A stretch of DNA of 64,000 bases from Curtobacterium sp. S6 (GTDB taxonomy: Bacteria; Actinomycetota; Actinomycetes; Actinomycetales; Micrococcaceae): NCBI RefSeq assembly GCF_000710345.2, contig NZ_JHEL01000009.1:1-64000 (forward strand), read 5' to 3'. Each line of letters opens with the position of its first letter. Within the stretch, counting starts at the first letter, position 1. Below the pieces are notes generated by a model. It saw nothing but the letters and a program-made list of their open reading frames with translations, was not told where the DNA came from and did no database searches. Positions 43,071 through 61,173 of the stretch are shown one piece after another. The position numbers and the translations under genes are program-made.

Positions 43071-43167
43071 CTCACAAGCTCCCCGTGAAGACGCCCAGGT
43101 TGGCGCTTACGGTTTACATTCTGGCTCTCTTCAGATTTTTATCAGAAAAGCGCATTTAAAACATTTC

Positions 43168-43180
43168 TTCAGTAACTGAA
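43168..43180. promoter_or_regulatory. Perfect dyad 1 upstream of the RiPP precursor
   Basis: TTCAGT-A-ACTGAA at 43168-43180. The left half matches the TTCAG word repeated across the region. Confidence 0.45.
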
Positions 43181-43188
43181 AATGTCTT

Positions 43189-43205
43189 GTGTCCATTTTG
43201 GACAC
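43189..43205. promoter_or_regulatory. Perfect dyad 2 upstream of the RiPP precursor
   Basis: GTGTCCA-TTT-TGGACAC at 43189-43205, 7-bp arms with a 3-base centre, 8 bases after dyad 1. Likely an operator; no regulator gene is found inside the operon. Confidence 0.5.
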
Positions 43206-43387
43206 CAAAGTTTCTCAGCCTTCTTCCAGTTTTGAAAGCTCCCAGAATACTTCCAGGTTTCCCAGTCACAGGCTTCTTTCAGATTTTTAGGTGTAGTATC
43301 CATCGTGTTGCAGCTTGATAGGAATCAAGCGAAGCCCAGAGTGCTTCGGCAGCATGTTCATCATCTGATCTGAAAGAAGGTAATTTC

Positions 43388-43543
43388 ATGAGCGATGGAC
43401 TCATCACCGAATCGGCCATTGACTTCGAGGCGGCAAACCTCGAAATCGAGGATTACGCCAATGTCGAGGAAATGAGTAAGAACACCTACACATCGTCATG
43501 CAGTAGCAGCAGCACCTCCAGCTGCACGTGCTGCTGCGCCTGA
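43388..43543 (+). CDS. RiPP precursor peptide (azole/dehydroamino-acid type, goadsporin- or thiopeptide-like)
   Basis: 51-residue peptide gene. ATG at 43388 has GAAAGAAGG 7 bases before it. The leader (residues 1-35) is acidic with helical LEIEDYANVEEM, like the LEIxDL-type leaders of thiopeptide and LAP precursors. The C-terminal end is TSSCSSSSTSSCTCCCA: 5 Cys, 8 Ser, 3 Thr and only one other residue. Every Cys/Ser/Thr is a possible site for azoline formation by YcaO or for dehydration by the LanB proteins encoded downstream. If residue 36 is core position 1, Ser10 is followed by Cys, the spacing of 26-membered thiopeptides; that reading is speculative. The core begins somewhere about residues 35-37. 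No similar known peptide comes to mind. Confidence 0.88.
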   Translation: MSDGLITESAIDFEAANLEIEDYANVEEMSKNTYTSSCSSSSTSSCTCCCA

Positions 43544-43549
43544 TGATTT

Positions 43550-43594
43550 GGCGGGCGGGTCCGCCCCGCGGGTTATGGTGCGGACCCGCCCGCC
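43550..43594 (+). terminator. Perfect GC hairpin between precursor and enzyme genes (attenuator)
   Basis: GGCGGGCGGGTCCGC (43550-43564) and GCGGACCCGCCCGCC (43580-43594) are a perfect 15-bp stem with a 15-base loop, 6 bases after the precursor stop. No T-run follows. It is best read as a partial terminator or RNA-stabilising stem that keeps precursor expression above that of the enzymes. Confidence 0.7.
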
Positions 43595-43641
43595 GCTCCT
43601 GGTCAGTTCCCCAGGTTCGTTGCGGTGGAGGCGATGATTCT

Positions 43642-45297
43642 TTGAAGACAGAAATACCCGAGCCGAGGCAGGTGGCCTCGCGAGCTACGCATTCGTATCT
43701 CAGCACTGTTCTGCGGCGTGGATCAGGCCCCATGCCGCCCGCGGATTTCGTGGCTAACTGGTCCGATGCGCCACGTGATGGCAAGTTCTATCCGAGGTCC
43801 ATATCCATCGACTTGGCGACGATGCCGGATCACTTGCCTCCTCCCGATGCGGCGAGATTGTCGAGCCTCGGCGGCCTTCTGCGCCTCGTCTATGGAAGGC
43901 TTTCGCGGAGACTGAGCGTCACGGCGAATGACGATGTGGGGAGGATGCAGCGGTATCCCAGCGCGCGATGGTCTCGGGGAACGGCCTCCGGGGGATCTCT
44001 CTATCCGAATTCAATGTATTGGGTGAGTTCCGGAAACGACGGTTGCATAGCTGGTGTCTACTACTATTCCCCCGGAACACACTCACTGGTTCGCCTTTCG
44101 GTGGGTCCTGCCGCCGAAAGAATGGGCCGTCTCCTGAATCAAGAAGACTCCTCCATTCCCACGGCAGGATATCTGGTCGTCGGTCCAAAGCTATGGCGTT
44201 CTGCCTTCAAATATGGTGCCTTTTCTTACCACGTGACCACGCTCGATCACGGCGCAATACTCGCCAGTATCGATAGATTGACTGGGAAAACTCTCCAAGT
44301 TTCACGCCGAAGCTTCACCTTTGATGAAGAGGCGGTGGCTCATTTGCTGGGAATTGACCCCGAAGCGGAACCTCTTTTGTCGGTGACGGCATTGGAATAT
44401 GCAGACCTGAGGAGGAAACACGACGTCGACCCGCCTTGCGAGCGGTCTGCGGCCCCCGGATACCTCACGGCGAGAGTCCACGTTCACGACCATGAGTGGT
44501 CCCAACGCACGATCTCCTTTGACATGGTGCGGGCCATGCAGCGAGAAATGGTGGACAGCAACCGGCCGGCAACGGAGGCCGTGACATGCGCCCCGGCGCG
44601 GACGTCGGAGGTGGTGCTGACCGACGCGGAACGTCGTCGCACCATCTCGGCACTGACGAAACGCCGAAGCGCATTCGGCCGTGTGGGGTGGAAAGCCATT
44701 CCTCGGTCAACGTTGGAGGGGATGCTCGAATCCCTTGCCGGTCCGCCCCAGGCTCAAGAGAGTCGGGTGGCTGACGAGAGCACTCGAACGCCTCTTGAGT
44801 GGTACGTGGCGGTCATCAACGTCGCGGAGACGCCGCAAGGCTTCTACCGCTGGACTCCTCATGGCCTGCAGCTCATTTCGGCTCAGGACCCCACGGACTT
44901 TCTGCAACGCAATTACTTTCTACCGAACTACAACATGGCGAACCTCGCGTTCGTGCTCGTGCCTTGCGTTGACTATGGCCGCGCGATCTCCGAGCAGGGA
45001 TCCGTCATGTATCGCGTGGCCAATGCCGCCATCGGACGCGCCACGCAGGAGTTTTACCTTGCGGCCGCCCACGCGAACTTGGCAGCCGGCGCGGCCCTGG
45101 GGTTCAACAACGTGGAATATCGCAAGGTGTTCGGGCTCGAAGGGCACCAGGAGGACGAGACCGCGGACCCAACCGTCCGGCCGGGAATGTGGCCGGTGAT
45201 CATCCTGATGGCCGGGTCCGAGAGCGCAGAACTCGCGCGGTATCGGTACGACCTCTATACGAAAGGCATGGTCCACACGTGGGCTCGAGCACTATGA
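43642..45297 (+). CDS. SagB-type azoline dehydrogenase
   Basis: 551-residue protein with two nitroreductase-like halves. The first carries TASGGSLYPNSMYWV (FMN-binding SGG..LYP motif, about residue 117) and AFKYGAFSYHVTTLDHGA (about 190-205); the second begins RRSAFGRVGWKAIP (about 335) and ends AAAHANLAAGAALGFNN. These are features of SagB/McbC enzymes, which oxidise thiazolines and oxazolines to thiazoles and oxazoles with FMN. The start is uncertain: I favour TTG 43642, 10 bases after GGTGGAGG, because upstream in-frame codons lie in the hairpin. Its stop overlaps the LanB start by 4 bp. Confidence 0.85.
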   Translation: MKTEIPEPRQVASRATHSYLSTVLRRGSGPMPPADFVANWSDAPRDGKFYPRSISIDLATMPDHLPPPDAARLSSLGGLLRLVYGRLSRRLSVTANDDVGRMQRYPSARWSRGTASGGSLYPNSMYWVSSGNDGCIAGVYYYSPGTHSLVRLSVGPAAERMGRLLNQEDSSIPTAGYLVVGPKLWRSAFKYGAFSYHVTTLDHGAILASIDRLTGKTLQVSRRSFTFDEEAVAHLLGIDPEAEPLLSVTALEYADLRRKHDVDPPCERSAAPGYLTARVHVHDHEWSQRTISFDMVRAMQREMVDSNRPATEAVTCAPARTSEVVLTDAERRRTISALTKRRSAFGRVGWKAIPRSTLEGMLESLAGPPQAQESRVADESTRTPLEWYVAVINVAETPQGFYRWTPHGLQLISAQDPTDFLQRNYFLPNYNMANLAFVLVPCVDYGRAISEQGSVMYRVANAAIGRATQEFYLAAAHANLAAGAALGFNNVEYRKVFGLEGHQEDETADPTVRPGMWPVIILMAGSESAELARYRYDLYTKGMVHTWARAL

Positions 45298-48011
45298 AGA
45301 CGCGGGCTAGGAATGGCGGGTTGACGGTCAATCCGGTGGGTGCGGTCAGGTTGCCGGGAGTCTCCCACGATGTCTGTACGGACCTGCGGGCTACCTCCGC
45401 CGCGGCCCTGCACGAGCAGGACATGAGCCTGACCGAAGAGCTCGGTAATGCGGGGGAGCGGCTCGCCGATGCAATATTTCCGCTGGTTCCGGGCGCGGAT
45501 GCGCAGACGAGGCGGAAGCTCATCAAACTCCGGCGCGCCGTGTATCAAGGTGCGGGCGTTGACGTGGACGATTCGGTCAGGGCCTATGTCGCAGGACAAG
45601 CCCCCGAGGTCGCGGATTTGCTGGATGACTATCAAAGACTGTGCGACAGGCACCGCAACACCCGATCGCGCCTGGAGGAAGCTTTCTCGACCGGCGTGCG
45701 GGACGCGCGCGACCGTCTCAAGAAGGCCAGCCGGGAACCGGCGATCGCGAAGGCCCTCGCGGTGGGGTCGCCCGAGCTGAGCCGCGGGGTTCAGCGCTGG
45801 CGCCTGAGCCCGACCGTGGCGGTCCGGTCCAAGGCCTCTCGCGGTATCGAGCGGTCGATCCTCAAATACCTCGCTCGGGCATCGCTGAAGACGAGTCCGT
45901 TCAGCTCGCTGACGACCGTGGCCCCGTGCCTGGTTCGGGCCGAAGGACCGACAACCCGCGCGTTGCAGGGCGCAGGTACCGGTGAGGCTCGCGAGGTGAC
46001 TCATTCCCAACTCAACGTCGTCTTGCTGACGCGCGTTCTACGAGCCGTGGTGTCGGGGGACGCGCTCTTCGAATTGCCCCTCGAAGTATCCGACGCCGTG
46101 TCGAGGGATAGCGACCTCATGCGAACCGTGCAGCGTCGGGTGATCGACAACGACGAGGTCGAGGCGGAACGCGACTTCGACCTGGTCGAAGACAAGCTCG
46201 TGTGGTTTTACACGTCCACTATTCTGCAATCCGTCCTGAAGGCCCTTGCGCCGGGCACGCAACTGACCGGGGCGGAACTGGCGGAGACCCTGCGCTCCGA
46301 AGGCCTCGGCGATGACGACGGTTGTCGCAGGATCGTGCGCCAACTCGTGCGGTTGGGCGTCGTGGAATGTCGTCTCGTGCGGTTGAGCCCGTACGACGAT
46401 CCGCTGGAGACGTTGGACAACAGGCTGTCGCCGATGAACACCCCCTGGGCACACGCGGTCCGGGAGGCGCTCCTGACCCTGCGGGGGCTTCGGGACCGCT
46501 TCTCGTGCGCCGACGACGCCGAGCGATTGCGGATCCTGGACGAGGTGCGGCAGACCGTCCGAGACATGGCCGATGGAGACATTGACCTGCCCAAGACGCT
46601 GATCTACGAGGACGTCGTCCATCCCTTCTCGGGTGGGGACGCAATGGTCCTGTCGACCCGTGTACGTGACGATCTGGCATCCCTGCGCTGGTTGTTCCAC
46701 CTCCTCGATCCGGCCGAAGCCCATCGGCATCTCTTGAGCGCGTTCTTCGACGCCCGGGTGCCGGAAGGCGGAACCGTCGAGGACGTCGCCGGATTCCTGA
46801 CGGAGTTCGACGACGACGTCTACCGCGAATTCCTCGCCTGGGGCGCGAGCACCGGGACCTTCTCCGGCCTCGACTACAGGCCGCGCGCGAACTGGTTAAA
46901 TGATTCGGTTCCGCCGCACTGCGACGCCGAACGGCTGCGACTTCGCGACTACATCCAGGAGCGAGCCGGCGAGGAAGTCATCGATCTGGCGGGGTTCGCG
47001 CCGGAGGAACACCATCGATGCTCGAGTTTCATGCACGCCCGCTCGTACACCGCATTCATCCAATGTCCGACGGGTGATTCCTCCGAGATCATCCTCAATA
47101 AGGTTCACGGCGGGGCCGGATTCTCCCTCTCCCGATTCACGGGCGCCTTCGACGCGGCGGATCCGGTGCACACGGCCGTCGCGGAGTCGATGGGCTCCTT
47201 GAACGACGCCGAGGTGATTTGGGCCGAAGTGCCTGGTTCGGATGCGACGAGCAACCTCAACCTGCATCGCTCGTCGTTCCGGTACGGGTTGCAACTGCCC
47301 GGCGGCCCTCACCTGGACACCGCGGTGACCCCGATCCGTCTGGATTCCCTGGCCTTGCGCAGGGCCCCGACGGGACGACCCATGCTGTGGAGCAAGTCCC
47401 TGAACAGGTACGTCGTGCCGGTCTACACCGGTTACCTCATCAGCCGGGCGCTTCCCGAGCTGACCAGGTTGCTGTTGCTGCTCGGAGACGCGGTATCGCC
47501 TCACCTGTCGCTGTGGGATGGAGTGGCCGTTCCCGCCGACGCGCGGGGGATCGTGAGACGACCAGCCGTGCGGCACGGCGCCGTGGTGCTCGCGCGCGAG
47601 TCCTGGAGCACCCCCGTGGGTCTGTGGGAGGCCGGCATGGGCCGCGAGGTCGATCTAGAGACCTGGGCGAGGGCCCGGAAGCTTGCGCGAGACCTGGGCC
47701 TGCCGCCGCGTGCTTTTTACACGGTTGCCGATGGCGAGGTTCCCTCAACTCGCAAGCCGGTCTTCGTCGATTTTGACTCCCCCTTGTCGGTGGACGCGAT
47801 GCTCAACGACCGGAACGTCCACCAAGCCGCGACCCTGACTTTTCATCGCGTCATGCCTGATCCCTTCGGCGACCAGACCGAACACGATGCCGCAGCGGTT
47901 CGGGAGTTCGTCATCGAAACACATTCGGCGATGACCGTTTCTCCTCCGCAGAAGCCGGCGGATACAGCATGGACCATCAGGAAGGAAGACGCCCGTGACA
48001 CGGCACATTGA
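45294..48011 (+). CDS. LanB-type dehydratase, glutamylation (N-terminal) protein of a split pair
   Basis: 905-residue protein matching the Lant_dehydr_N domain throughout: KASRGIERSILKYLARASLKTSPFSSLT (split, about residues 180-207), the YDDPLETLDNRLS segment, and the end WARARKLARDLGLPPRAFY with KPVFVDFDSPLS. It lacks the 300-residue SpaB-C elimination domain of full-length LanB, which is encoded next door. In goadsporin and thiopeptide systems this protein uses glutamyl-tRNA to glutamylate Ser/Thr of the precursor, the first step to dehydroalanine/dehydrobutyrine. ATG 45294 overlaps the SagB stop; the 3' end overlaps the next gene by 17 bp. Confidence 0.88.
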   Translation: MKTRARNGGLTVNPVGAVRLPGVSHDVCTDLRATSAAALHEQDMSLTEELGNAGERLADAIFPLVPGADAQTRRKLIKLRRAVYQGAGVDVDDSVRAYVAGQAPEVADLLDDYQRLCDRHRNTRSRLEEAFSTGVRDARDRLKKASREPAIAKALAVGSPELSRGVQRWRLSPTVAVRSKASRGIERSILKYLARASLKTSPFSSLTTVAPCLVRAEGPTTRALQGAGTGEAREVTHSQLNVVLLTRVLRAVVSGDALFELPLEVSDAVSRDSDLMRTVQRRVIDNDEVEAERDFDLVEDKLVWFYTSTILQSVLKALAPGTQLTGAELAETLRSEGLGDDDGCRRIVRQLVRLGVVECRLVRLSPYDDPLETLDNRLSPMNTPWAHAVREALLTLRGLRDRFSCADDAERLRILDEVRQTVRDMADGDIDLPKTLIYEDVVHPFSGGDAMVLSTRVRDDLASLRWLFHLLDPAEAHRHLLSAFFDARVPEGGTVEDVAGFLTEFDDDVYREFLAWGASTGTFSGLDYRPRANWLNDSVPPHCDAERLRLRDYIQERAGEEVIDLAGFAPEEHHRCSSFMHARSYTAFIQCPTGDSSEIILNKVHGGAGFSLSRFTGAFDAADPVHTAVAESMGSLNDAEVIWAEVPGSDATSNLNLHRSSFRYGLQLPGGPHLDTAVTPIRLDSLALRRAPTGRPMLWSKSLNRYVVPVYTGYLISRALPELTRLLLLLGDAVSPHLSLWDGVAVPADARGIVRRPAVRHGAVVLARESWSTPVGLWEAGMGREVDLETWARARKLARDLGLPPRAFYTVADGEVPSTRKPVFVDFDSPLSVDAMLNDRNVHQAATLTFHRVMPDPFGDQTEHDAAAVREFVIETHSAMTVSPPQKPADTAWTIRKEDARDTAH

Positions 48012-49038
48012 GACGCCACCGCGCCAGTGGCTGGCCTCGCACATTCACTATGCGGCGCACCCGCAACCATTGTTGGCGCAGTGCCTACGACCGATGGTGC
48101 ATCGGCTACGGGAGGAAGACCTGATTTCGGGGTACTTCTTCATCAACTACTGGCTCGAAGGCCCCCACGTCAGGCTGCGGTTGCTGCCCCGGGACGGCGT
48201 CGACCCCCGGAGCGTGACCGACGTGCGAGATCGCTATATCGAGGAGTTTCTTCGGCGTCGACCGGCGCTATATCGGGTCAACGAGGAAGAATTTTCTGAG
48301 CAAAGCTACGACGTCCTCTTTCGCCTGGAGTTTAACGACGAAGACAGACGGCGCTCCGTCGATGACAACGGACAGATGCGCCTGGTCGCCAACAACACCG
48401 TGGTGCTCCGGGAGTATCAGCCCGAACTGACCCGGTACGGTGGCCCACACGGGGTGCGATTGAGCGAGGAGCATTTCGAAACGGCCTCTGATATTTGCCT
48501 CGAACTGGCCCATCAGGGCCGTTTGCTCGATCGAATGCATCTCTTCGGGACGGCCCTTCTGCTGATGCAGATCATCGCCTCGGTCTTCCTGCCTGACGAG
48601 GAGGACCGCGCGGAATTCTACCGAGAATACGAACAGCACTGGCGCGATTCATTCGTGGGCACCGACTACCTGTCGGGTCAAGATATGGACCCCAAGATCG
48701 CGCAGTCGCTCCCGACGGCGATCCGCTCGCAGCAACTTGCCGCGGAGATCGAACCCTCGCGTTCGAGCGGCCGGCTGGCGGCCCGTTGGAAACACCACTG
48801 TCTCGAGCTGGCGGAAAACGTGGATGCCCTGGCGCGCAACGGGGACCTGGTCTTTGAAGACTTCCGGAGCCCAGGCACGCACGTCCGGGCCCAACCTTAT
48901 GACGCGCGGGTGCGTCTGCTGTTCTCCTACGTGCACATGATGAATAACCGGATGCACGTGTTGATTTCCGACGAGGTGTACCTCACGCAGCTGGCCCACG
49001 AGGCCTTAACATCGCGGGGCGAGAGCCATGATCGGTAA
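47995..49038 (+). CDS. SpaB-C-like protein: glutamate elimination enzyme, or TclM-like cycloaddition enzyme
   Basis: 347-residue 'thiopeptide-type bacteriocin biosynthesis' protein (SpaB_C/Lant_dehydr_C fold). The N terminus has the family sentence WLASHIHYAAHPQPLL, GYFFINYWLEGPHVRLRLLP (about residues 45-64), and the middle ELTRYGGPHGVRLSEEHFETASD (split). Two functions share this fold: eliminating glutamate from glutamylated Ser/Thr (TbtC, GodG) and the formal [4+2] that builds the thiopeptide pyridine (TclM, TbtD). Since a split LanB needs an eliminase and only one such gene is present, elimination is the parsimonious role. GTG start at 47995 within the previous gene. Confidence 0.82.
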   Translation: MTRHIETPPRQWLASHIHYAAHPQPLLAQCLRPMVHRLREEDLISGYFFINYWLEGPHVRLRLLPRDGVDPRSVTDVRDRYIEEFLRRRPALYRVNEEEFSEQSYDVLFRLEFNDEDRRRSVDDNGQMRLVANNTVVLREYQPELTRYGGPHGVRLSEEHFETASDICLELAHQGRLLDRMHLFGTALLLMQIIASVFLPDEEDRAEFYREYEQHWRDSFVGTDYLSGQDMDPKIAQSLPTAIRSQQLAAEIEPSRSSGRLAARWKHHCLELAENVDALARNGDLVFEDFRSPGTHVRAQPYDARVRLLFSYVHMMNNRMHVLISDEVYLTQLAHEALTSRGESHDR

Positions 49039-50131
49039 CCAGCCCTTCGCGGAACACGCGGTTGCCGAGCATGCCGCCGGAGTGTTTCCCGCGCTCTTAC
49101 GCACGGCGGTGATCGGTCACCACACCGTGGAGAACGGGGTGTGGGGGCGGCTGGTGTCGGATGAGAGCCAACAGAGATTGGTGCGGCTCACCGAGGCCCA
49201 GTATGCCCTGTTGCGCAAAGCCGACGGAGCCACAACCCTTCAAGACATTTCCTCGTCCACGGCCGTGAACCCCGCGTCATTGGCCACGTTCTACGGCGGT
49301 TTTGCCGACCGCGGGATCCTCGAGTGGCGGACCCGGCCGGGCGACTCGTCCCCGAACGATGTCTCTCGGACAAAGGCCTGGCGGGCGGTCGCGGGGTGGA
49401 CCATCATTGTGATGGCACTGGCCCTGGGCGGTTTCTACCTCGCGCACTGGCCGCAGATCACCGCGGAATTATCGCGCCGCATCCCGGGGCTTACCGAGAT
49501 TCTTCTCGCCGCGCTCTTCGTCCTGGGTCGCGGGATCGTCCACGAAGCCGGTCACGCCGCGGCGGTGCGCCTGTGCGGCGGCCGAGTCCGGAGATTCGGG
49601 TGGAAATGGACCGGGCGGAGCCTCTACCTATACATGAGCTCGTCGAACCTGGGGCTGCTGCCTAGCCGAGCCGGAGTGACCATGGTCGCTCTCGCGGGGG
49701 TGATCGTCGATCTCGTGGTGACGGCCCCCATCCTGGTGGTCTGGACACAGAACCCCGCCCAACCGGTGCCGACCCTCATCCTCTATATCGGCGGCATCAA
49801 CGTCCTGACGAATCTCTGTGTCTTCCCCACCTTGGACGGATCCGCCGCGCTGAGCGGCATCCTGGGCACGCGTGAACCATTCAGCGTCGCCACGGGCCTG
49901 CGGCGTGCGAATGGCTCGCCCCATCGTTTCAGCGGAGGCCTCTGGCGCACATCGGTCATCGCCATGGCGGCCGTTGCCAGCGCAGCAACCCTTGTCATCG
50001 TGCTCGCCGTGACCATCCGACAGAGCGGGATAGATCTCTTCGCCGTCGGCGCCATGGTCGCGATGATGCTTCTGTCGTGGGGAGCCTCCCTCGGCAAATC
50101 AACCAAAACCACCGAGAAGGCAGGACTGTGA
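49028..50131 (+). CDS. Membrane M50-type metalloprotease with N-terminal PqqD-like region
   Basis: 367-residue integral membrane protein. Zinc motif HEAGHAAAVRLCGGRV (about residues 172-176 for HExxH) inside a membrane segment and CVFPTLDGSAAL (about 265-276, the LDG motif of M50 proteases) mark it as a site-2-protease-like enzyme. The first 110 residues (LTEAQYALLRKADGATTLQDIS and on) look like the PqqD/RRE-type winged helix found at the N terminus of 'peptide zinc metalloproteases' in RiPP loci. Probable role: recognition and removal of the leader during export, or immunity. It overlaps the gene before by 11 bp and the ABC ATPase after by 4 bp. Confidence 0.78.
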   Translation: MIGNQPFAEHAVAEHAAGVFPALLRTAVIGHHTVENGVWGRLVSDESQQRLVRLTEAQYALLRKADGATTLQDISSSTAVNPASLATFYGGFADRGILEWRTRPGDSSPNDVSRTKAWRAVAGWTIIVMALALGGFYLAHWPQITAELSRRIPGLTEILLAALFVLGRGIVHEAGHAAAVRLCGGRVRRFGWKWTGRSLYLYMSSSNLGLLPSRAGVTMVALAGVIVDLVVTAPILVVWTQNPAQPVPTLILYIGGINVLTNLCVFPTLDGSAALSGILGTREPFSVATGLRRANGSPHRFSGGLWRTSVIAMAAVASAATLVIVLAVTIRQSGIDLFAVGAMVAMMLLSWGASLGKSTKTTEKAGL

Positions 50132-51051
50132 AGAGCCCATCAACCCCACCGGCCATCACCGTTGAGAATGTCACCAAGAACTACGACGGGTCCTCTGCCT
50201 TGGGCGGTATTACCCTGAACGTCGCCCGCGGCGAATTCTTCGGAATGATCGGCCCTAATGGCGCAGGAAAGACCACGCTCATTGAGCTCATGGCGGGCCT
50301 GCAATCGCCGACATCCGGTCGCATCAGGGTGCTCGGATTCGATCCCGCGGTGCGCGACAAGAAATTCCTGCTCTCGGTGGGGATGCAGACACAACATCCC
50401 GCATTCTTCGACGCGTTGTCGGTCCGGGAGCATCTGGAGGTCGTTGCCGGGCTGCGTCGAGCCAGCCGACGGGACGTCGAGGACGCCATGGAGCTGGTGG
50501 ATCTGCAAGACGTCGCGAAGAAGCGCATCGACAAACTGTCCGGCGGCCAGAAGCAACGCGTGTCCATCGCGGCCACGGTCCTGCATCGTCCCCAGATCAT
50601 CTTTCTGGACGAGCCGACCGCGGCTCTCGACCCCGAGGTCCGGCGGCAACTATGGGTGACCCTCGAACGCCTGAGGACCGCGGGAACCACCACCATCTAT
50701 ACGACCCATTACCTGAACGAGGCGGAACGATTGTGCGACCGGGTCGCCATCCTGGACGCCGGGGAGATCGTCACCGTGGGGAGCCCGGCGGAGCTGTGCG
50801 CCACGCACTCCTCGGGGACCCAAATCATCACCGCTCCCGGGCGGCTTACCCGTCAGGAAGCGGAACAACTGCCCGACGTCCACCTCGTGGAAGAACGTGA
50901 AGGATCGCTCGTACTACACACGGCCCGCCCCGGGGCGGTCATGGCCATCGTGGAAGAAAGCGGCGGGCTGGCGGGCGTCACGGCCCGGCACGCCACGTTG
51001 GAAGACGTGTATTTCAAACTCACCGGAAAGGAGATGTCCCATGAGTCTTAG
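50128..51051 (+). CDS. ABC transporter ATPase (peptide export/immunity)
   Basis: 307-residue ABC-2-type ATPase with Walker A GPNGAGKTT (about residue 47), signature LSGGQKQRVSIA (about 138), Walker B IIFLDEPTAALD (about 158) and switch His in YTTHYLNEAERL. A 70-residue C-terminal extension is usual for drug and bacteriocin exporters (CcmA/DrrA type). GTG start in a GTGA overlap. With the permease it should export the mature peptide or protect the producer. Confidence 0.9.
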   Translation: MKSPSTPPAITVENVTKNYDGSSALGGITLNVARGEFFGMIGPNGAGKTTLIELMAGLQSPTSGRIRVLGFDPAVRDKKFLLSVGMQTQHPAFFDALSVREHLEVVAGLRRASRRDVEDAMELVDLQDVAKKRIDKLSGGQKQRVSIAATVLHRPQIIFLDEPTAALDPEVRRQLWVTLERLRTAGTTTIYTTHYLNEAERLCDRVAILDAGEIVTVGSPAELCATHSSGTQIITAPGRLTRQEAEQLPDVHLVEEREGSLVLHTARPGAVMAIVEESGGLAGVTARHATLEDVYFKLTGKEMSHES

Positions 51052-51781: not shown

Positions 51782-53667
51782 CGCAGCGCAGAACAGCTTC
51801 ACGCGACGAAGCTTCGGGAGCCGCGCGGTGCACGCTGGCCGGTTTGCCGCTCGTCGTCCTCGGCGCCTTCGACGCGTTCGCGTCCTGGCCCGTCGAATCC
51901 GTCACCGAGCCCGTCGCCCTGGTCGCTGGCACCACGGTGTTGGTGGGTCCGTACAACTCCGAGAACGCGCTGCGCGGATGCGCCCGATGCATCGCCCTGC
52001 GGTGGCAGGAACTGCGGCCCCCTCGGGAGCGAGGGGCTCTGGAAGCCTTGCCGGCGCGTGAGGACCGTTTCGAAGCGGCAGGTCCGCTGCCGGGCACACG
52101 TCCGGGATGGCTGAGAATGCACGAGCCTGCCGTGGTGGAGGCCATCGGGCTGCTCACGGCGTCCCTCTCTGCGTCGCGTTCCGGCGACGGCGCGGAGCTG
52201 GCCTGGCTGCTCTCCGTGGATCTGCGTACCGGCCGGACCGCGTCTTCCCCCTTCTTGGCGCACTCCCGGTGCCCGTCCTGCGCTCCGGCGGGATCCGGGG
52301 GACCCGCCGCGCCGCGGCTGCCAGGGGCCGTCCGGCACTCACGATTTGCGCGGTTCAGCACCCCGGTGGATCGCCTCCAGCTACCCAGCGAAGCCCTGGT
52401 CGACCCCACCTGGGGTGCCCTCGGGGCGCGGATCGATCGCGGCTTCGACGCCCCCACGCTCGCGTCCTCGGGCGGAATGATGCGGCGGTGGGGCCCACGC
52501 GGCTTGACCGATATTGGGTGGGGCGGCCAACAACGCACCTTTTCGGCGTCGGTCGCCGCTGCCGTGCTGGAAGGCCTCGAACGCGATAGCGGGGCCGCCA
52601 ATATCGGTGGACAACCGGAAATCGTTGCGACCTACGACGACATCGCCGACCACGCGCTCGACCTGGACACGCTGGGGATCCGCATCGACGAGCGCCGCAC
52701 GCACGAGTGGTTCGCGCTTGACCGTCACACGCCCACGACGTGGATTTGGTTACGTCCGCTCCGCCGCGGTCGACCGAAACTCGTTCCCAAACAGTGCGTC
52801 TATTACAACTCCGGTGACACTTCTCCCTACGTCGTGCAAGAAAGTTCCAGCGGGTGCAGCGTGGGATCGAGCCTGACCGAGGCCGTCCTCGGTGGCCTGT
52901 TGGAAGTCATCGAGCGCGATGCCTTCCTGCTCGGGTGGTATCGGGCCCTTCCGCTGACCCAGATCGATGACCGCTCGGTGCCCGGAACGAGCGCCCGACA
53001 AGCCGTGGCATGCGCCGTGGCCCGGGGGTATACGCTCCGCTTCTTCGATAACAGAATCGATCTGCCGGTTCCCGTGGTGTGCGCCGTCGCGGAACGGGAC
53101 GTCCCCGGAGAGGGAGCCGCGGTCTTCGCCGCCGCCGCGGACCTGGACGCGGTCAATGCCATCGACGGAGCCGCTTGCGAAGTGCTTTCACGGATACCCA
53201 TCATCCGGGACGAGGTGCGTGGTCGACCGGATCTGGCCCCCGCGGCCCTCCGGAACTTCGACCTCATCCGGACGCTTGCCGACCACGCGGTCTTACCCGG
53301 GATCCCCGGGTTCCCCGAGCTGGCGCCCCAATACTTCCGCCCGAAGACCGTCGGCGGCTACGAACGGCTTTACGGCGAGCGGCGCCCGAGGCCCGCCGAC
53401 CTGAGGCAAGACGTCGACCATATTCTCGACGCGCTCGAGGAGCGGGGCCACCACGCGTACGTCGTCGAGCAGACCTCCCGGGAGCAGAAACAGCTCGGCC
53501 TGCATTCCGCCCGCGTCGTCGTGCCGGGCCTGCTCCCGATCGATTTTGGGTGGGACCGGCAACGGGCCCTGACCATGAAACGTTTGCGCGCCGCGCAACC
53601 CCGATTCCTGCCTCGCCCGGCGTCGTCGGCGCCCGGTGTGAGGCGTGTGCCCCATCCATTTCCCTGA
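51778..53667 (+). CDS. YcaO cyclodehydratase no. 1, with N-terminal CxxC pairs
   Basis: 629-residue YcaO-domain protein. The C-terminal 400 residues carry the ATP-binding glutamate clusters LEGLERD (about 265) and QESSSGCSVG...LEVIERDAF (about 355-380), and the chain ends HPFP, the proline-rich terminus needed by azoline-forming YcaO enzymes. The N-terminal 190 residues contain two CxxC pairs (GCARC about 67, RCPSC about 164), resembling the zinc tetrathiolate of E1-like cyclodehydratase partner domains. So this looks like a fused partner-YcaO enzyme that makes thiazoline/oxazoline from Cys, Ser and Thr. GTG 51778 forms a GTGA overlap with the permease; GTG 51772 is an alternative. Confidence 0.85.
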   Translation: MTQRRTASRDEASGAARCTLAGLPLVVLGAFDAFASWPVESVTEPVALVAGTTVLVGPYNSENALRGCARCIALRWQELRPPRERGALEALPAREDRFEAAGPLPGTRPGWLRMHEPAVVEAIGLLTASLSASRSGDGAELAWLLSVDLRTGRTASSPFLAHSRCPSCAPAGSGGPAAPRLPGAVRHSRFARFSTPVDRLQLPSEALVDPTWGALGARIDRGFDAPTLASSGGMMRRWGPRGLTDIGWGGQQRTFSASVAAAVLEGLERDSGAANIGGQPEIVATYDDIADHALDLDTLGIRIDERRTHEWFALDRHTPTTWIWLRPLRRGRPKLVPKQCVYYNSGDTSPYVVQESSSGCSVGSSLTEAVLGGLLEVIERDAFLLGWYRALPLTQIDDRSVPGTSARQAVACAVARGYTLRFFDNRIDLPVPVVCAVAERDVPGEGAAVFAAAADLDAVNAIDGAACEVLSRIPIIRDEVRGRPDLAPAALRNFDLIRTLADHAVLPGIPGFPELAPQYFRPKTVGGYERLYGERRPRPADLRQDVDHILDALEERGHHAYVVEQTSREQKQLGLHSARVVVPGLLPIDFGWDRQRALTMKRLRAAQPRFLPRPASSAPGVRRVPHPFP

Positions 53668-53713
53668 CCGACGTCATCAACGAGTCCCCACCACACACAA
53701 GGAAGCATTCACC

Positions 53714-54820
53714 ATGGCAGAACACGGAATTTCACTCCTTCCCGACCGTCAGGACGGTCATGGCTCCGCGGCCAACTACTACGACGATGTCCTCGCGATC
53801 TGTCGATACGCAGACCGGCTCGGCCTGAGCCACGTCAAGATGACCGAGCACTACATGCACGAATACGGCGGTTTTTCGCCCAGTCCGCTGACTTTTCTCG
53901 CGACGGTCGCCGCCCAGACCCAGCGGATCAGGTTGATGACCGGGGCCCTCATCCCCGCATTCCACCATCCGGTACAGATCGCGGCGCATGCCTCGATGGT
54001 CGATAACCTCAGCCGAGGCCGCCTCGACCTCGGATTGGGCCGGGCGTGGCTACCGTACGAATTCGAGACGTTCGGGGTCCCCATGGACCAGAGCAGGGCC
54101 CGCTACCAAGCGACGATCGAGGCCGTCCGCGACCTCTGGACCCAGGCCTCGGCGACGGCGGATACTCCGTTCTTCGCCTATCGACAGGTCCGCAGTTTTC
54201 CGATGCCGTACCAGTCCCCGCATCCGCCGTTGTGGGGAGCCGCGGTGCGCTCCCCGGAGAGCTTCGAATGGCTCGCCCGCCAAGGGTGCGGGCTGATGAT
54301 GTCCCTGCCCCCGGCCCGCAAGGACCTGAAATTCAGCGACGGCCTCGTGGACGTCTACCGAGAGGCCTACCAGGAGGCCCACAACGGGGCCCGCGGCAAG
54401 GTTGCACTGAGCGTTCCGCTGATGATCGCCGATACCGACGAGCACGCTTACCAGAAGGCGAACTATTTTCACTCCCGGTACATGACCGTCTGGAGCGATG
54501 CCATCGAGTGCTGGTCGAGGACCGAGTCGGCAGACTATCCCGGCTACGGTGACATGGCCGCTCACGCCCGAGAATTGGCGCACCTCGGCCTGCGAGAGGA
54601 CGGCACCGCCGTCGTCGGGTCGCCCCAGACCGTGGCCCGGACCATCCGGGAACTGCAGGACCGCTTTTCCGTGGACACCTTTCTCTGGCAGGTGGATTTT
54701 GGAGGGCAGGACGAAGGGTCCATGCGGGACAACCTCGACAGGCTCGTCGGAGACGTCTTCCCGCTCCTCGACGCCGCGGAGACCAGGCCGGGGGACGAGC
54801 CGGAGCCCGAACGCTCATGA
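53714..54820 (+). CDS. LLM luciferase-like flavin enzyme of the RiPP operon
   Basis: 368-residue TIM-barrel flavoenzyme. LLM landmarks: LGLSHVKMTEHYMHEYGGFSPSP (split, about residues 37-58), RIRLMTGALIPAFHHPVQIAAHASMVDNLSRGRLDLGLGRAW in overlapping strands (about 75-115) and VGSPQTVARTIREL (about 300). ATG follows CAAGGAAGC, 46 bases after the YcaO stop, the largest gap in the operon. Its place inside a coupled biosynthetic run says it tailors the peptide. In class V/other lanthipeptide loci, LLM-type F420H2 enzymes (LanJ-C) reduce dehydroalanine to D-alanine; oxygenation is the other option. Cofactor cannot be settled by eye. Confidence 0.82.
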   Translation: MAEHGISLLPDRQDGHGSAANYYDDVLAICRYADRLGLSHVKMTEHYMHEYGGFSPSPLTFLATVAAQTQRIRLMTGALIPAFHHPVQIAAHASMVDNLSRGRLDLGLGRAWLPYEFETFGVPMDQSRARYQATIEAVRDLWTQASATADTPFFAYRQVRSFPMPYQSPHPPLWGAAVRSPESFEWLARQGCGLMMSLPPARKDLKFSDGLVDVYREAYQEAHNGARGKVALSVPLMIADTDEHAYQKANYFHSRYMTVWSDAIECWSRTESADYPGYGDMAAHARELAHLGLREDGTAVVGSPQTVARTIRELQDRFSVDTFLWQVDFGGQDEGSMRDNLDRLVGDVFPLLDAAETRPGDEPEPERS

Positions 54821-55983
54821 CGCGGACGGATGCTCAGGTGCCGGCCGAATTGTTCCGGCGGGCCAGGGAGCTGTACGACGCCTTGCACGCGTTGGCCGAG
54901 CCCTCCGGGGAAGAAGCGGCCACGGCAGCCCTCGTGGCCGACATCGTTGCGGGACTTGGAGCTACGGTCCGGACAGGTATCGGGGGTCATGGCGTGGTCG
55001 CCGTCATCGACCGTGGGCCTGGACCCGTCGTGTGGGCCCGCGCCGAGCTGGACGCGGTCGGCCACCATTCCCGTCCTTCTGGGCCGGGACGTGCCGGAAC
55101 TGGCGCCGAGCATTTATGCGGCCACGATCTTCACCTGGCCGCTTGGTGGGCCGCCGCGGCGTACGTGTGTGAGCGGTCGTGGTCGGGAACCCTCGTCCTG
55201 GTGGCCCAACCCGCGGAGGAATCCTTGACGGGGGCCCAGGCCATGGTCGCGGACGGCCTGGGGTCGCTGGTGCCCGAACCGGACGTCTTGCTGGCCCAGC
55301 ACGTGGCGATCATGCCCTCGGACATGATCGCCACCTTTCCGGGCCAGGTCACCTCGGCCCACGTGGAATGCACGGTCGCGGTCCCGGAGGGGGACCGGGC
55401 CGAGGATTTCGACGCGATCTGTCCGACGGCTGGAGCCCACACCTTCTGGAGCGTCACCGAGCCGGGACGGACGACGCTCGCGGCACGCTTTACCGACGTC
55501 GAGGCGGCACGTCGTTGCCTGGCGCACCTGCGGAGCTGGGCTGGGCCACGGTGCGTGAGGTCGCGGCTGGTTCCTCCCCTGCACAACGAGGCCTCCTTGG
55601 CGGCGGCCGTCGCAGAGGGGCTGCGCCGGGGTCTTCCGCGGCACGTCGTCCGTGACCTCGGCCCGATGACCTCCGCGGAGGACCTCGGCGACTTATCCGG
55701 CGCCCCTCCGCAGCGACCGGCCCCCGTCGTGTACTGGCTGTTCGGGGGGATCGATCCGCGGCGTTGGTCGGCCGCCGGGGGAGAGAACTTCTGGGAGACG
55801 ACCCGGGCCTTTGCCCCGCTGCATGATCCGCGAGTGAACCTCGACGTTGATCAGGCCCTGCGGACGGCGATCGGGGCGATGGGATCAGCCATCGAGCACG
55901 CGTTCGCGACGCTGGGCTCGCGGGCTGAAGCACACAACACACTTGCCGGTTCGGCCGGCCCTACGGAAAGGACACGTCCATGA
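54817..55983 (+). CDS. M20D-like metallohydrolase of the RiPP operon
   Basis: 388-residue protein of the M20D amidohydrolase group. Metal and catalytic motifs are kept: RAELDAVGHH (family RADMDAL), HLCGHDLHLAAW (about residue 103), the catalytic QPAEESLTGA (about 130), MTSAEDLGDLS and PLHDPRVNLD (C-terminal metal His). The dimerisation insert is short and lacks the GxxxHxSxP motif of free-living relatives such as the one at 11235-12455. Its job in the operon is unknown: trimming the peptide N terminus, releasing an N-acyl group, or inactivating a toxic intermediate are all possible. Joined by ATGA overlaps on both sides. Confidence 0.78.
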   Translation: MTRTDAQVPAELFRRARELYDALHALAEPSGEEAATAALVADIVAGLGATVRTGIGGHGVVAVIDRGPGPVVWARAELDAVGHHSRPSGPGRAGTGAEHLCGHDLHLAAWWAAAAYVCERSWSGTLVLVAQPAEESLTGAQAMVADGLGSLVPEPDVLLAQHVAIMPSDMIATFPGQVTSAHVECTVAVPEGDRAEDFDAICPTAGAHTFWSVTEPGRTTLAARFTDVEAARRCLAHLRSWAGPRCVRSRLVPPLHNEASLAAAVAEGLRRGLPRHVVRDLGPMTSAEDLGDLSGAPPQRPAPVVYWLFGGIDPRRWSAAGGENFWETTRAFAPLHDPRVNLDVDQALRTAIGAMGSAIEHAFATLGSRAEAHNTLAGSAGPTERTRP

Positions 55984-57887
55984 CGTCCTCAACATCGCTC
56001 GCGAGCGAGATGCTGCGCGTTCGAGACGACGTGATTTTCGCGCGGTCTTCGCACGGAACACTGATTCACAACGCCGACGAGGGGTTCGAGGTGAAAGGCG
56101 CAGAAGGCTTTTCGCTGGTGCGGCGCCTGTTCACGACCCTCGACGGGCGGAAGACCGGCGAGCACATCCTGGAGGATCTCCCCGGGGCAGACCGTTCGCG
56201 GGCGAACGCCCTCATCAAGGCCCTAGATCGGCACGGGTTCCTTCTTCGGGTGCCTGCCGAATTCCGCGAGATTTCCCCGGAGGTGCGCGAGGCCTTTGCG
56301 TCTCAGATGTCGTACCTCCTTCACTTCAGCGCGGACCCGGGGCCGGGGTTCCGGCGAATCCGTGATGCCAAGATCCTCGTGGTCGGTGAGGGGCCCGCGG
56401 CGGCATGGGCCGTGATCGGGCTGATGCGCAACGGCTTTACACACCTGACCGTTCGCACCAGACACGATGCGCCACCGCGCGAGGTGATGGCCGAACGCGA
56501 GACCATGATCGATCGGCGCGTGGCCTGTGAGCTGGACTGGCAGGCCGTCAACGGTCAGGAGCTGGCGCCCATGATGCGCGAGGCCGACCACGTGATCGTC
56601 GCGAGCGCCAACGATGGGCAGGACATCGTGGCCAGGTGCGTACGCCTCGCCGAGGATCGGCGGATCCCCGTGACCGCCTTGTGGCGATTTGGCGACGGCG
56701 TGATCGTGGGTCCGGTTCCGTCGCTCCAGGGCGAGGAGGGGACGGGATGGATGGAGGCCGCCGCCCGCGTGAGCGTCAATTCCGCGCCGCACGACGCCGC
56801 CCGGTTCTGGGGCGCCGTCCAGGCCGCTCCCGGGGTCGCCGCCGTCGCGTCGGCACCGGCAACGGTGGAGGCCATGGTCGGCAATTTGGCCGCCTTCGAA
56901 GTCTTCCGGGAAGTCGGGGGAGCGAGGAACGAGGACGCTGGCCGCGAAGTCTTGATTCAGGACATCCACACGGCGGATGTCGTCTCGGCACCGATCGTAG
57001 GGTCCGTGACGCCACGCCCAGAAGGTCGCGATCCCCACGGGCCGGAACGAGGGCACGCCACCGCCCTCGAACGGTTGGAAGCGACGGCGGATCTGGTCAA
57101 TCGGCATACGGGCATTTTTCGGGTGTTCGAGGACGAGCCCCTGGAGCAACTGCCGCTCAAGATTTCCCGGTTGCGCTACGGCATGCTCGGCGGCCGCGAC
57201 GTCGTGGTGGATGCCTGGCACCTCGAGACGCTGGCGGACGCCCGGTGCCTGGCGATCGAGGAAGCGGCCGCTCGGCTGACCTCGGAATGCATGGCTTCCT
57301 CGTCGGTGCGGGAAGAATCGGTCCACGTGGCGGCGTCGTTCGATCCCGAAGAGGCCCGGCGGAAGGTTCGTTGGTCGGCCGCACGGGTGCGGGCCGTGCG
57401 GGGGCTGGCGCGAAACGCCGTCGAAGTGGATGCGTTGGATGCTCACGAGTATCCGACCCGGGCGAAGTACCTGCTGGAAAGCATCGACATCTGGGGGTTG
57501 TCACCGCGTGCCTACCGGGTCGGGCGCTTTGGCGGGGTGAGCGTTGCCCTCGCGGCCCTCTGGGATGCCGCGGACGAGATGCCCGTGGCGGCGGCGCTCG
57601 CCGGCGGGGACGACGACGACCAGGCCGTGATGAACGCCCTCACTCAGGCCGTCGCCGAGCACCAACTCGCCCTGCAACTCCAGGCCCCCGATGCGCCCCC
57701 GAGGCCCTTGATCGAGGGGTTCGAGCTGTTGCGGGATGTCGACTGGAAGGCCCTGGAAGGCATCTCTCCCGGGTCCCTCGGAGCGGCCCAGGACCACGCC
57801 CTACGGCTGGAGGTCCTCGAGATCACGCCGGACGTCTTCGCCGACCGTGGCCTGACCGTGGTGCGTGCCCATGAACTCGATGCCTGA
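55980..57887 (+). CDS. Ocin-ThiF-like leader-binding protein (azole-peptide maturation)
   Basis: 635-residue protein of the 'thiazole-containing bacteriocin maturation' (ocin-ThiF-like) type, matching that family's length. N-terminal 110 residues: winged-helix leader-recognition region (VKGAEGFSLVRRLFTTLDG, split from ALIKALDRHGFLLRVP). From about 129 a Rossmann-like ThiF/E1 domain begins (AKILVVGEGPAAAWAVIGLM). No catalytic Cys or adenylation Arg finger is evident, as expected for F-protein-type scaffolds. It should bind the precursor leader and activate a YcaO enzyme. Overlaps genes on both sides. Confidence 0.82.
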   Translation: MTSSTSLASEMLRVRDDVIFARSSHGTLIHNADEGFEVKGAEGFSLVRRLFTTLDGRKTGEHILEDLPGADRSRANALIKALDRHGFLLRVPAEFREISPEVREAFASQMSYLLHFSADPGPGFRRIRDAKILVVGEGPAAAWAVIGLMRNGFTHLTVRTRHDAPPREVMAERETMIDRRVACELDWQAVNGQELAPMMREADHVIVASANDGQDIVARCVRLAEDRRIPVTALWRFGDGVIVGPVPSLQGEEGTGWMEAAARVSVNSAPHDAARFWGAVQAAPGVAAVASAPATVEAMVGNLAAFEVFREVGGARNEDAGREVLIQDIHTADVVSAPIVGSVTPRPEGRDPHGPERGHATALERLEATADLVNRHTGIFRVFEDEPLEQLPLKISRLRYGMLGGRDVVVDAWHLETLADARCLAIEEAAARLTSECMASSSVREESVHVAASFDPEEARRKVRWSAARVRAVRGLARNAVEVDALDAHEYPTRAKYLLESIDIWGLSPRAYRVGRFGGVSVALAALWDAADEMPVAAALAGGDDDDQAVMNALTQAVAEHQLALQLQAPDAPPRPLIEGFELLRDVDWKALEGISPGSLGAAQDHALRLEVLEITPDVFADRGLTVVRAHELDA

Positions 57888-59757
57888 GGCAAACGGCGTG
57901 GACGCCGCCTACACGCCGCTCGAGCTATGGGCCGCAGGCCTCGCCCGCGATGTGAGGAACCTGGCGCCGGGCATCGGATTTTCGGCCGTCATCGACGTGC
58001 ACGACTCGGCGGGATGCCGTGTTGCCTCGGGGGCGATCGATCCTGAGGGGAGCGCGGAAGGTGTCCGGATGCGGGTGCGGTTGCTCGTCGCCGGAACCTG
58101 GTTGCTGGTGCACGTGGGCACCGGCTCGGCCGGATCCTCGGGACGCGACACGTGGCGCGGCATCCTCCGACGATGGCGGAACGCTCTGCCGGTGTCCGCA
58201 CCGGATGGTGAGGGGCCGAAGCGCACGGGGCAGGTTCTCGATGGGTTGGGGTGGCACCGGACGTCCGTGTCCATCCTGGTGGCGAGGATACTCACGGGCG
58301 AAGTCGCGCCCGGCCGGCTCCTGGTGTTCCACCGCGGAGGCCTTCGATCTCAGCCGGCCGACGCCCAGGACCTGCGCCGCATCTGCCAACCGCCCGATCC
58401 ACAGGACTGGCCGAAAGGCCTCGAGAGGGTCTCGTCGGTCCACGGACTGCTCGAGGAAGAGGAGGCCCTGACGAACTTCAGGTGCGGCCTCCTCGCGGAG
58501 AGCTACGGTGTCAGGTGGGACCATCCCGTCAACGCGGTGGTCTACGGAAGTAGCTCCGTCGGCGATACCGGTTGGCGGCACTCGGTGACCTGGGGAGGCC
58601 ACACGAACAGCGTCCGGGGGAGTCGGCTCGTGGCGATGCTCGAAGGCCTGGAACGCCAAGGGCCCTCCAACGGCGACCGGCAGGTCGATGTCCTCCGCTC
58701 GACCTGGGCCGACCTGAGCAGAGAGAGCGCAACCGGTGGGCCCCTCGTCGTCGATCCGGCGGAGTTGGGGCTGTACGACGCCCGCTTCGAGGCCCTGCAC
58801 CCCACGGCTATGCGATACCGCCCGGATGCGCCCCTGTTGTGGGCGCGCTCGCGGTGTCTGACGTCAGGCTCACCGTCCTGGGTCCCCTTGTCCTCGGTCG
58901 CCTACGACGCGGTACCCCTGGAGGAACGGTTCGTTCAGGAGACCTCCAACGGTTGCAGTACCGGAAGCGTGCGGCCCGAGGCCGATCTGCACGGGCTCTT
59001 CGAACTCATCGAACGGGACGCGTTCCTGCTCGCGTGGGGCGCAGGCCGGGCCCTTCCCCGGCTCACTCTGGACGCGGATACGCCCCAGGATCTTCGGTTC
59101 ACCTGCGCCCGATTGGACCATCTCGGATTCACGGTGACGTTGCTCGACGCGACCAGCGACCTCGGCATACCGGTGGTGATCGCGGTCGCCATCGACCGTT
59201 CCCGGCGCGTCGGGGGATGCGTCGGGGCCGGCTGTTCGCTGGATGTGTACGACGCCGTTCGAGGAGCGCTCGCGGAGATCGCCTCCGACGCGCCCACCAT
59301 GGGAGAGCGCCTCGAGCGACGCCGTGATGAGGTCGTGGCCTTGGCGCAACAACCTCAGAATGTCCGGACGCTTTCCGATCACGCCGATCTTTTCAGTCTG
59401 CCCGAGGTGGCCTCGCGACATTTGGGGATTCTGATCTCGTCTCCGGTGGAGACGTCCCTGAGCGAATTTCGCGGAAAAGACTTCGCTCGGGGGGTGATGG
59501 CGGACCAGGTGACGGACCACCTCCGGAGGATCTGTGACCTGTTGGCCACGCGGGGTTTCGCGGTGCACAGCACCGTATTAACCACGGCGGCGCAAGCTGC
59601 ACTCGGCCTGGTCAGCACGGCCGTGACGGTTCCGGGGCTCCTGCCGATAGATTTCGGCGCCGAGCGCCAGCGTTTCCGCGAGATGCCTCGGATGAAGGAG
59701 CACCTGGCCCGTCTCGGCATTCCCGCCGCCAACGATGTCCCGCACCCATTTCCTTGA
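57871..59757 (+). CDS. YcaO-domain protein no. 2
   Basis: 628-residue second YcaO. ATP-site motifs LEGLERQ (about 257) and QETSNGCSTG...FELIERDAF (about 350-380) are kept, and it also ends PHPFP, so it is probably an azoline-forming enzyme, not a thioamide-forming one; no TfuA partner is present. Unlike no. 1, its N-terminal 190 residues have no CxxC pairs. It directly follows, and overlaps, the ocin-ThiF gene, so it may be the main cyclodehydratase with that partner while no. 1 works on its own set of residues. Start ambiguous: ATG 57871 (chosen), GTG 57865 or ATG 57880. Confidence 0.84.
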   Translation: MNSMPEANGVDAAYTPLELWAAGLARDVRNLAPGIGFSAVIDVHDSAGCRVASGAIDPEGSAEGVRMRVRLLVAGTWLLVHVGTGSAGSSGRDTWRGILRRWRNALPVSAPDGEGPKRTGQVLDGLGWHRTSVSILVARILTGEVAPGRLLVFHRGGLRSQPADAQDLRRICQPPDPQDWPKGLERVSSVHGLLEEEEALTNFRCGLLAESYGVRWDHPVNAVVYGSSSVGDTGWRHSVTWGGHTNSVRGSRLVAMLEGLERQGPSNGDRQVDVLRSTWADLSRESATGGPLVVDPAELGLYDARFEALHPTAMRYRPDAPLLWARSRCLTSGSPSWVPLSSVAYDAVPLEERFVQETSNGCSTGSVRPEADLHGLFELIERDAFLLAWGAGRALPRLTLDADTPQDLRFTCARLDHLGFTVTLLDATSDLGIPVVIAVAIDRSRRVGGCVGAGCSLDVYDAVRGALAEIASDAPTMGERLERRRDEVVALAQQPQNVRTLSDHADLFSLPEVASRHLGILISSPVETSLSEFRGKDFARGVMADQVTDHLRRICDLLATRGFAVHSTVLTTAAQAALGLVSTAVTVPGLLPIDFGAERQRFREMPRMKEHLARLGIPAANDVPHPFP

Positions 59758-59841
59758 CCAGGCTCTCAGCCGTAGAGCGCGCGGTCTTTTCGTATCAGTT
59801 GTTCATGGTAAATAAAATTACATTTATTGAAAGGTTATAAT

Positions 59842-59922
59842 ATGACACCGTCGATCTTTGGAATTATTTTCATTGTCTTTGGATTTGGGTACTACGTGTG
59901 GCGGAAAATGTCGAAGGACTGA
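59842..59922 (+). CDS. 26-residue single-span membrane peptide
   Basis: Small AT-rich reading frame with GAAAGG 8 bases before ATG. The peptide starts MTPSIFGIIFIVFGFGYYVW and ends RKMSKD: one 18-residue hydrophobic span followed by a basic tail, so N-out/C-in topology is likely. It lies 84 bases past YcaO no. 2 on the same strand, behind an 11-codon upstream frame (59805-59840). It could be an immunity peptide for the RiPP, a small toxin, or a subunit of the exporter; nothing identifies it. The surrounding 59758-59935 has no other gene. Confidence 0.55.
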   Translation: MTPSIFGIIFIVFGFGYYVWRKMSKD

Positions 59923-59935
59923 TTCCTCGGGCGGA

Positions 59936-61006: not shown

Positions 61007-61160
61007 CAAGGTCTCCGTGCGACGTCGGGGTGATCTGCGAAAACTCGCGGTCCATGTCGACTGTATCCAAGCGGGGCCGGAAAAAATTTTCACCATCAAT
61101 AAACGTGAGTGGGTTCACGGATACGTCGGTCGCCATGTAACCTGGCTCTCAACGTAAACG

Positions 61161-61173
61161 AACGAAGTTCGTT
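61161..61173. promoter_or_regulatory. Dyad upstream of agmatine deiminase
   Basis: AACGAA-G-TTCGTT at 61161-61173 in the divergent gap between the YdcF-like and aguA genes, with another overlapping AACGAA copy just upstream. Likely a repressor site; no candidate regulator in the window. Confidence 0.4.

Follow-up and report, generated by a model that had tools for sequence, protein, structure and literature searches.

A predicted azole- and dehydroamino acid-rich RiPP cluster with a rare luciferase-like enzyme in Curtobacterium sp. S6

What does a small peptide gene followed by eleven enzyme and transport genes produce in Curtobacterium sp. S6, and how much of this arrangement is new? The genes lie in the window, by which we mean the whole 64,000-nucleotide stretch analysed, and form a 12-gene block 16.9 kb in length, with a precursor gene and eleven mostly overlapping genes on the same (+) strand, the last of which ends at 59757. 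Open reading frames, domain scans and the precursor model TIGR03892 bear out the initial annotation on this composition, and its prediction of an azole- and dehydroalanine-rich RiPP is still the best reading of the enzymes encoded (SagB, cyclodehydratases and a split LanB). We propose, with a probability of about three in four, that these genes make up a complete RiPP cluster, most likely acquired in one piece, whose product would be a linear peptide with many azoles and dehydroamino acids.

Upstream of the peptide gene is a presumed promoter region (43075..43387, +) that is AT-rich, at about 43% G+C relative to 65% for the window. It includes three degenerate 21-nt direct repeats, spaced 26-27 nt apart at 43213-43286, which are a possible regulator-binding array; no sigma-70-like site was found in 42900-44000. 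The precursor gene (43388..43543, +) encodes 51 aa and scores 34.7 bits against TIGR03892, the NCBIfam model of thiazolylpeptide-type precursors (cut-off 25). In its last 17 residues, TSSCSSSSTSSCTCCCA, Ser, Thr or Cys fill 16 positions and Ala comes at the end. A leader-only profile made from the precursors of relatives ranked it first, weakly (E 0.43), among the 1193 stop-to-stop ORFs of at least 25 aa in the whole window; its leader is divergent, possibly a distant form of the ETFE[IV].D-type leader of these relatives. The precursor had been placed directly ahead of the enzyme genes, and the two are indeed adjacent, but they do not overlap: a 16-bp hairpin (43549..43595, +) separates the precursor from SagB, whose likely start is TTG 43642 in a frame open from 43528. 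The region 43530-43645 folds at -59.8 kcal/mol (z -2.95, one of 200 shuffles being equally good). The hairpin is possibly an attenuator or stabiliser, and because it follows the precursor, the precursor transcript may be partly separate from that of the operon.

The remaining genes, all on the + strand, supply what such a precursor would need, with likely start codons chosen by judgement among the candidates. The SagB-type azoline dehydrogenase (43642..45297) matches TIGR03605 at 123.7 bits (cut-off 78.4). The N-terminal, glutamylation protein of the split LanB, LanB-N (45294..48011, start ATG 45294), has no Pfam or NCBIfam match and was recognised with phmmer through PDB entries 6ec7 (E 6e-25) and 9jhq, a goadsporin protein (E 2e-9), while its C-terminal partner, LanB-C (47995..49038), matches PF14028 at 135 bits and by its motifs is of the elimination type. 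An M50-like membrane metalloprotease (49028..50131) is the presumed leader protease; it has no Pfam match and reaches 40.9 bits with the NCBIfam daptide protease model, far under the cut-off of 300, and it keeps HEAGH. Domain scans identify a DrrA-like ABC exporter ATPase (50128..51051, start GTG 50128) and an ABC-2 permease (51041..51781, start ATG 51041). YcaO1 (51778..53667, start GTG 51778) is a cyclodehydratase that matches PF02624, TIGR03604 and, in its N-terminal leader-binding part, TIGR03882. It is followed by a luciferase-like, presumably FMN-dependent oxidoreductase (LLM; 53714..54820, start ATG 53714; PF00296), by an M20D amidohydrolase/peptidase whose gene overlaps that of the LLM (54817..55983), by an ocin-ThiF-like F protein, the presumed leader-binding partner (55980..57887; TIGR03693 at 43 bits, far under the cut-off of 561.9), and by YcaO2 (57865..59757), which matches PF02624 and falls under the TIGR03604 cut-off (198 versus 219 bits) and carries no TIGR03882 part. 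Beyond YcaO2, at the AT-rich right end of the island, a 26-codon ORF (59842..59922, +) encodes the membrane-like peptide MTPSIFGIIFIVFGFGYYVWRKMSKD; the interval annotated initially ends at this ORF and makes no mention of it. No Pfam match was found for it, and its product is possibly a small membrane peptide, perhaps an immunity or export helper.

YcaO1 and YcaO2 are the only YcaO proteins of the genome, which is 99.96% complete. YcaO1 corresponds by position to the ABC-adjacent YcaO of relatives. In a tree of 37 YcaO domains, YcaO2 falls in the F-adjacent clade of relatives (support 97/86) and YcaO1 lies outside it with no firmer placement; both are long branches, so these places are unsure.

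Judged from the encoded proteins, the cyclodehydratases, SagB and split LanB together should yield azoles and dehydro-residues. We hypothesize that the F protein and the two YcaO proteins bind the leader and cyclise Cys, Ser and Thr of the core, after which SagB, as its family membership suggests, would oxidise the azolines to azoles. The split LanB would glutamylate remaining Ser/Thr and eliminate glutamate to give Dha/Dhb, the Dha being expected from what is known of the family. No pyridine ring would form, since the genes include no separate [4+2] enzyme. M20D might then trim the C-terminal Ala beside the last heterocycle, a tentative step, guessed from a correlation, that we hold somewhat less probable than its alternative. 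The LLM might oxidise the product with FMN; that it acts late is likewise a guess from correlation and more doubtful still. By analogy with their families, the M50 protein would remove the leader and the ABC pair would export the peptide.

How widespread this gene set is bears on whether it is new. A LanB-C scan of a genome collection (84,980 species) returned 172 relatives, and the best 80 of the 172, together with two plasmid loci, gave 82 loci, several of them cut by contig ends. LanB-N and LanB-C occur in all 82, SagB in 80, the ABC ATPase in 75, the permease in 71, the F protein in 69, exactly two YcaO in 62, M20D in 60-62 depending on threshold, and the LLM in one. The order F-YcaO-SagB-LanBN-LanBC-ABC-ABC-YcaO recurs in 60 of the best 80 of 172, and 57 of these 60 also have M20D. 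The proposed novelty of the enzyme combination is therefore not supported, since two YcaO, SagB, split LanB and F are common to these 60/80 loci of a large actinobacterial family. An M50 match was found in 43/80 (best 80 of 172) at any score and in 6/82 at E 1e-10, so the place of this gene in the order is less sure. Downstream of M20D the largest ORF group, on the opposite strand, occurs in 27/60 loci. The window has the full family set (F, two YcaO, SagB, LanBN, LanBC, ABC pair) and differs from relatives in gene order: its F-YcaO pair is at the end, LLM-M20D stands before that pair, and the precursor has another place.

A class-level sample gave a similar picture, with LanB-C in 20/394 genomes (E 1e-30), our own included, and the relatives' gene order at 13/19 loci; four of the 19 (L150, L151, L153, L157) look like repeats of L042, L078, L037 and L041. 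Nine loci of one family (f21; L150-L158) have the complete set with M20D, apart from the permease, which was unmatched in L155; in L140-L143 only M20D is missing from the set, L144-L148 encode a single YcaO and lack the ABC pair in this order, and L149 is distant.

Among the closest systems are the loci of Streptomyces, Actinacidiphila and Kitasatospora (L024-L101 in part), which share with the window the F-YcaO-SagB-LanBN-LanBC-(M50)-ABC-ABC-YcaO-M20D genes, a related type of leader and an [STC]A core end. Unlike the window, they have the F-YcaO block in front, no LLM was seen in them, the precursor gene lies ahead of M20D in divergent orientation, and the core is near-invariant, of the STSCSSTSTCSSTTSTTSCSA type. 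The near-identity of this core across many species suggests a conserved role. Virgisporangium aurantiacum (L102) has all the features that these loci share with the window, plus an LLM overlapping M20D; it differs in that F-YcaO is in front, M20D precedes the LLM, four precursors follow the LLM, and the M20D lid is of full length. There are also clusters of the Actinomyces oris type (L021, L124, L126, L129), which like the window have F, YcaO, SagB, LanBN, LanBC and thiazolylpeptide-type precursors, with two YcaO in L021 and L124, but differ in that their precursors end ATA/ATF/AAL and no M20D or LLM was found in the fetched stretches. The thiazolylpeptide-type product name is also given to A. 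oris precursors that stand with a single LanB-C gene. Two such wider-family members with A. oris-like order occur near our strain, L125 in the same genus (G420) and L124, with two precursors ending ATA, in the same family (G438); neither has an M20D or LLM match in the fetched stretches.

The combination of two YcaO with an LLM and an M20D enzyme had also been put forward as undescribed, and here the claim divides: M20D is common, as counted above, whereas the LLM is rare (2/102 related loci, several of which end at contig ends) and the core is unusual. The two LLM loci are the window and Virgisporangium; the proteins are 49% identical, and in both the gene overlaps M20D, with the order reversed. 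The best PDB match of the LLM is 7bip (E 6e-66), and it matches the MupA/Atu3671 model below cut-off. No CofH match was found in our genome, in a search that matched 11/14 controls (3 of them above cut-off), so FMN is probably the cofactor and F420 dependence is unlikely; CofD (PF01933) is uninformative for F420, as it also matches in E. coli. We rejected the idea that the LLM is a common actinobacterial gene: it is found at E 1e-40 in only 3/346 genomes of the phylum, our own included. In the other two there is no other cluster gene around the best match, and one of them (G771) has a two-YcaO/split-LanB family cluster on another contig.

M20D matches PF01546, and TIGR01891 below cut-off. It keeps Cys101, His103, Glu134/135, His162 and His336, which we take to be the metal-site residues of M20D enzymes. 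Counted on the alignment, it is short by about 40 residues around the lid, and it lacks the GGHA lid motif present in 54/60 M20D relatives, so its activity is uncertain. In the predicted model (pLDDT 81.0) the nearest folds are N-acylglutamine aminoacylase and IAA-amino-acid hydrolase. Precursor tails offer a clue to its role. Among distinct 30-residue tails per locus (102 loci, with the apparent repeats L150, L151, L153 and L157 left out of this tail count and the Clavibacter plasmid locus L023 left out of counts), 67/68 end in [STC]-Ala at loci with M20D, and 7/33 at loci without; the precursor was not found in 26/102 loci, 6 of them with M20D. The exceptions are one Virgisporangium precursor that ends in Ser beside M20D and, at loci without it, the precursors of L140-L142 (SSCA) and of L021 and L124 (ATA). 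This correlation, which spans few independent lineages (Streptomyces-type, Virgisporangium and the window), suggests that M20D trims the C-terminal Ala.

A bolder proposal is that the LLM and M20D work as a pair on the C-terminus, a kind of tailoring that would be new among azole/dehydroalanine RiPPs: M20D, like an aromatic-acyl-alanine hydrolase, would free the conserved terminal Ala and expose an azole carboxylate, and the LLM would oxidise that end. We consider this improbable as a whole, and just as improbable its opposite, that the two genes are cargo unrelated to maturation, for instance a small-molecule or cysteine-salvage pair. Pairs of LLM and M20D genes occur in sulfur-compound salvage, and the LLM is missing from nearly all related loci. 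Against this, M20D is in 60-62/82 related loci, its gene in the window overlaps both neighbours, LLM and F, and in Virgisporangium the genes of the LLM and M20D again overlap, with four precursors coming after the LLM.

The cluster could instead be decayed or silent, with no product. Its leader and M20D are divergent and both YcaO proteins are long branches in the tree, but the eleven enzyme and transport frames are all open, with GC3 of 0.68-0.81, most overlap the next, and the motifs of M50, of LanB-C and of the M20D metal site are kept. We consider this quite improbable.

A pyridine macrocycle, in which the single PF14028 protein would act as pyridine synthase, is suggested by the precursor, which passes the thiazolylpeptide-type model, and by LanB-C itself. 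In the PDB profile search LanB-C scores highest overall with the pyridine synthase TbtD, and Foldseek with its AlphaFold model (pLDDT 86.6) ranks TbtD/PbtD, interspersed with MadB, ahead of MibB/NisB. Since these searches favour TbtD, it is the motifs and the number of PF14028 genes that speak for elimination. LanB-C keeps the stretches Y..E..RYGG and HM.NNR, presumably those that hold the elimination residues of NisB, and the Tyr, Glu, YGG, His, Met and NNR positions are invariant across its relatives. In the profile search both stretches align with the dehydratase MibB, and the TbtD alignment omits both; the thiopeptide pyridine-synthase (TbtD/PbtD) model NF045556 gives 59.1 bits, against a cut-off of 325. 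A thiopeptide requires both elimination and cycloaddition, hence a dedicated [4+2] pyridine synthase in addition to an elimination-type LanB, yet LanB-C is the one PF14028 gene of the genome. On this count and these motifs, despite the TbtD-like fold and profile match, we rejected a thiopeptide, to which we assign a very slight probability. Because the only PF14028 gene carries elimination-type motifs, a linear, goadsporin-like product appears likelier than a pyridine macrocycle. Dehydrazoles use another dehydratase (PMC10676384), and that reading was ruled out by the lack of DUF4135 (LanMbC dehydratase) in Pfam scans of the cluster proteins.

Among described systems, goadsporin and the spongiicolazolicins resemble the predicted pathway, with azoles made by YcaO and a flavin dehydrogenase and Dha by a split LanB (PMC5303826, PMC10676384). 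In goadsporin, which follows the same enzyme logic, azoles are required before glutamylation (PMC5303826). Its cluster encodes a single, fused cyclodehydratase together with a terminal acetyltransferase and an ABC transporter that bears a peptidase. The window has the YcaO, SagB and split LanB of a goadsporin-type LAP and no [4+2] enzyme; a goadsporin-like N-terminal acetyltransferase (GNAT) and peptidase-bearing transporter domain had no match in the scanned cluster proteins. Spongiicolazolicins are mentioned in the citing papers PMC8838263, PMC7616364 and PMC10885120. The CWH03 genome (L048) holds a two-YcaO/split-LanB family cluster, but its predicted core is shorter than the reported 29 residues, and we draw no connection between the two. 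A class with two YcaO, lanthipeptide-like dehydratases of the split-LanB kind and no [4+2] enzyme, the coryneazolisins, has been predicted (Cox et al. 2015, PMC4603692), which also counts against the combination being new. As in the window, coryneazolisin loci encode a discrete YcaO (D) protein and a second, fused one, and the products are predicted to be non-macrocyclic (PMC4603692); in the window it is YcaO1 that is fused to the leader-binding TIGR03882 part and YcaO2 that is not. The coryneazolisin core is 10 C/S/T, Ile, then 5-7 C/S/T, whereas the core in the window is without Ile; the hosts are disease-causing Corynebacterium, and the comparison with the window is by description (PMC4603692). 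In the main text of that article, as accessible, the words 'luciferase' and 'M20' are absent. What remains unusual about the window is its LLM, an M20D with a shortened lid, its particular core with the Cys-rich end, and the order of the genes.

The edges of the block speak to its origin. A 14-bp direct repeat, GGCGGACTAGCTCA, stands at 43061..43074, where it contains the stop codon of a WbqC-like gene, and again at the other island edge, 59930..59943; no further copy occurs in the window (chance expectation 0.02). In a genome of the same genus (G468, locus L137) the site is empty: the flanking genes are adjacent and the block is absent, with window 41795-43064 and 59949-63985 aligning to 12782-14052 and 14079-18116. 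Domain scans of the cluster proteins turned up no integrase. Among 395 genomes of the family, only our own has a strong LanB-N match; six others match at 25-32% identity, two of them in the A. oris-like clusters L124 and L125. From this DNA evidence we infer that the block was most likely gained as a unit.

Farther left, a second AT-rich block (33924-39065, 5.1 kb, 48-63% G+C in 2-kb steps) is also absent from G468; its ORFs 35113-35649 and 35727-36698 have no Pfam match. About 5 kb left of the island are a TipAS-domain MerR regulator (65 bits; 37298-38074, -) and a DUF2268 protease (38088-39011, -), and a further luciferase-like gene (PF00296) is at 39065-40093 (-). TipAS is an antibiotic-recognition domain that binds thiopeptides, and this regulator, which has the sole TipAS match of the genome, could sense the cluster product. 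We did not count it as part of the cluster; the domain is present in 22/35 genomes of the genus, our own included.

No characterised product of the two-YcaO/split-LanB family was found in the literature searched, which lies mostly outside subscription journals and was judged by titles and the beginnings of abstracts, and core and leader strings had no match in a literature text search. The family thus has its LanB-C in about one in twenty genomes of the class sample and a near-invariant core in Streptomyces, yet no product in that literature. The C-terminal Ala rule makes the M20D step testable and, if the tailoring proposal is true, the LLM/M20D pair would create a C-terminus for which described RiPPs offer no example. 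The cluster of Curtobacterium sp. S6, a divergent family member with a rare extra enzyme, is suited to testing both the M20D and the LLM steps.
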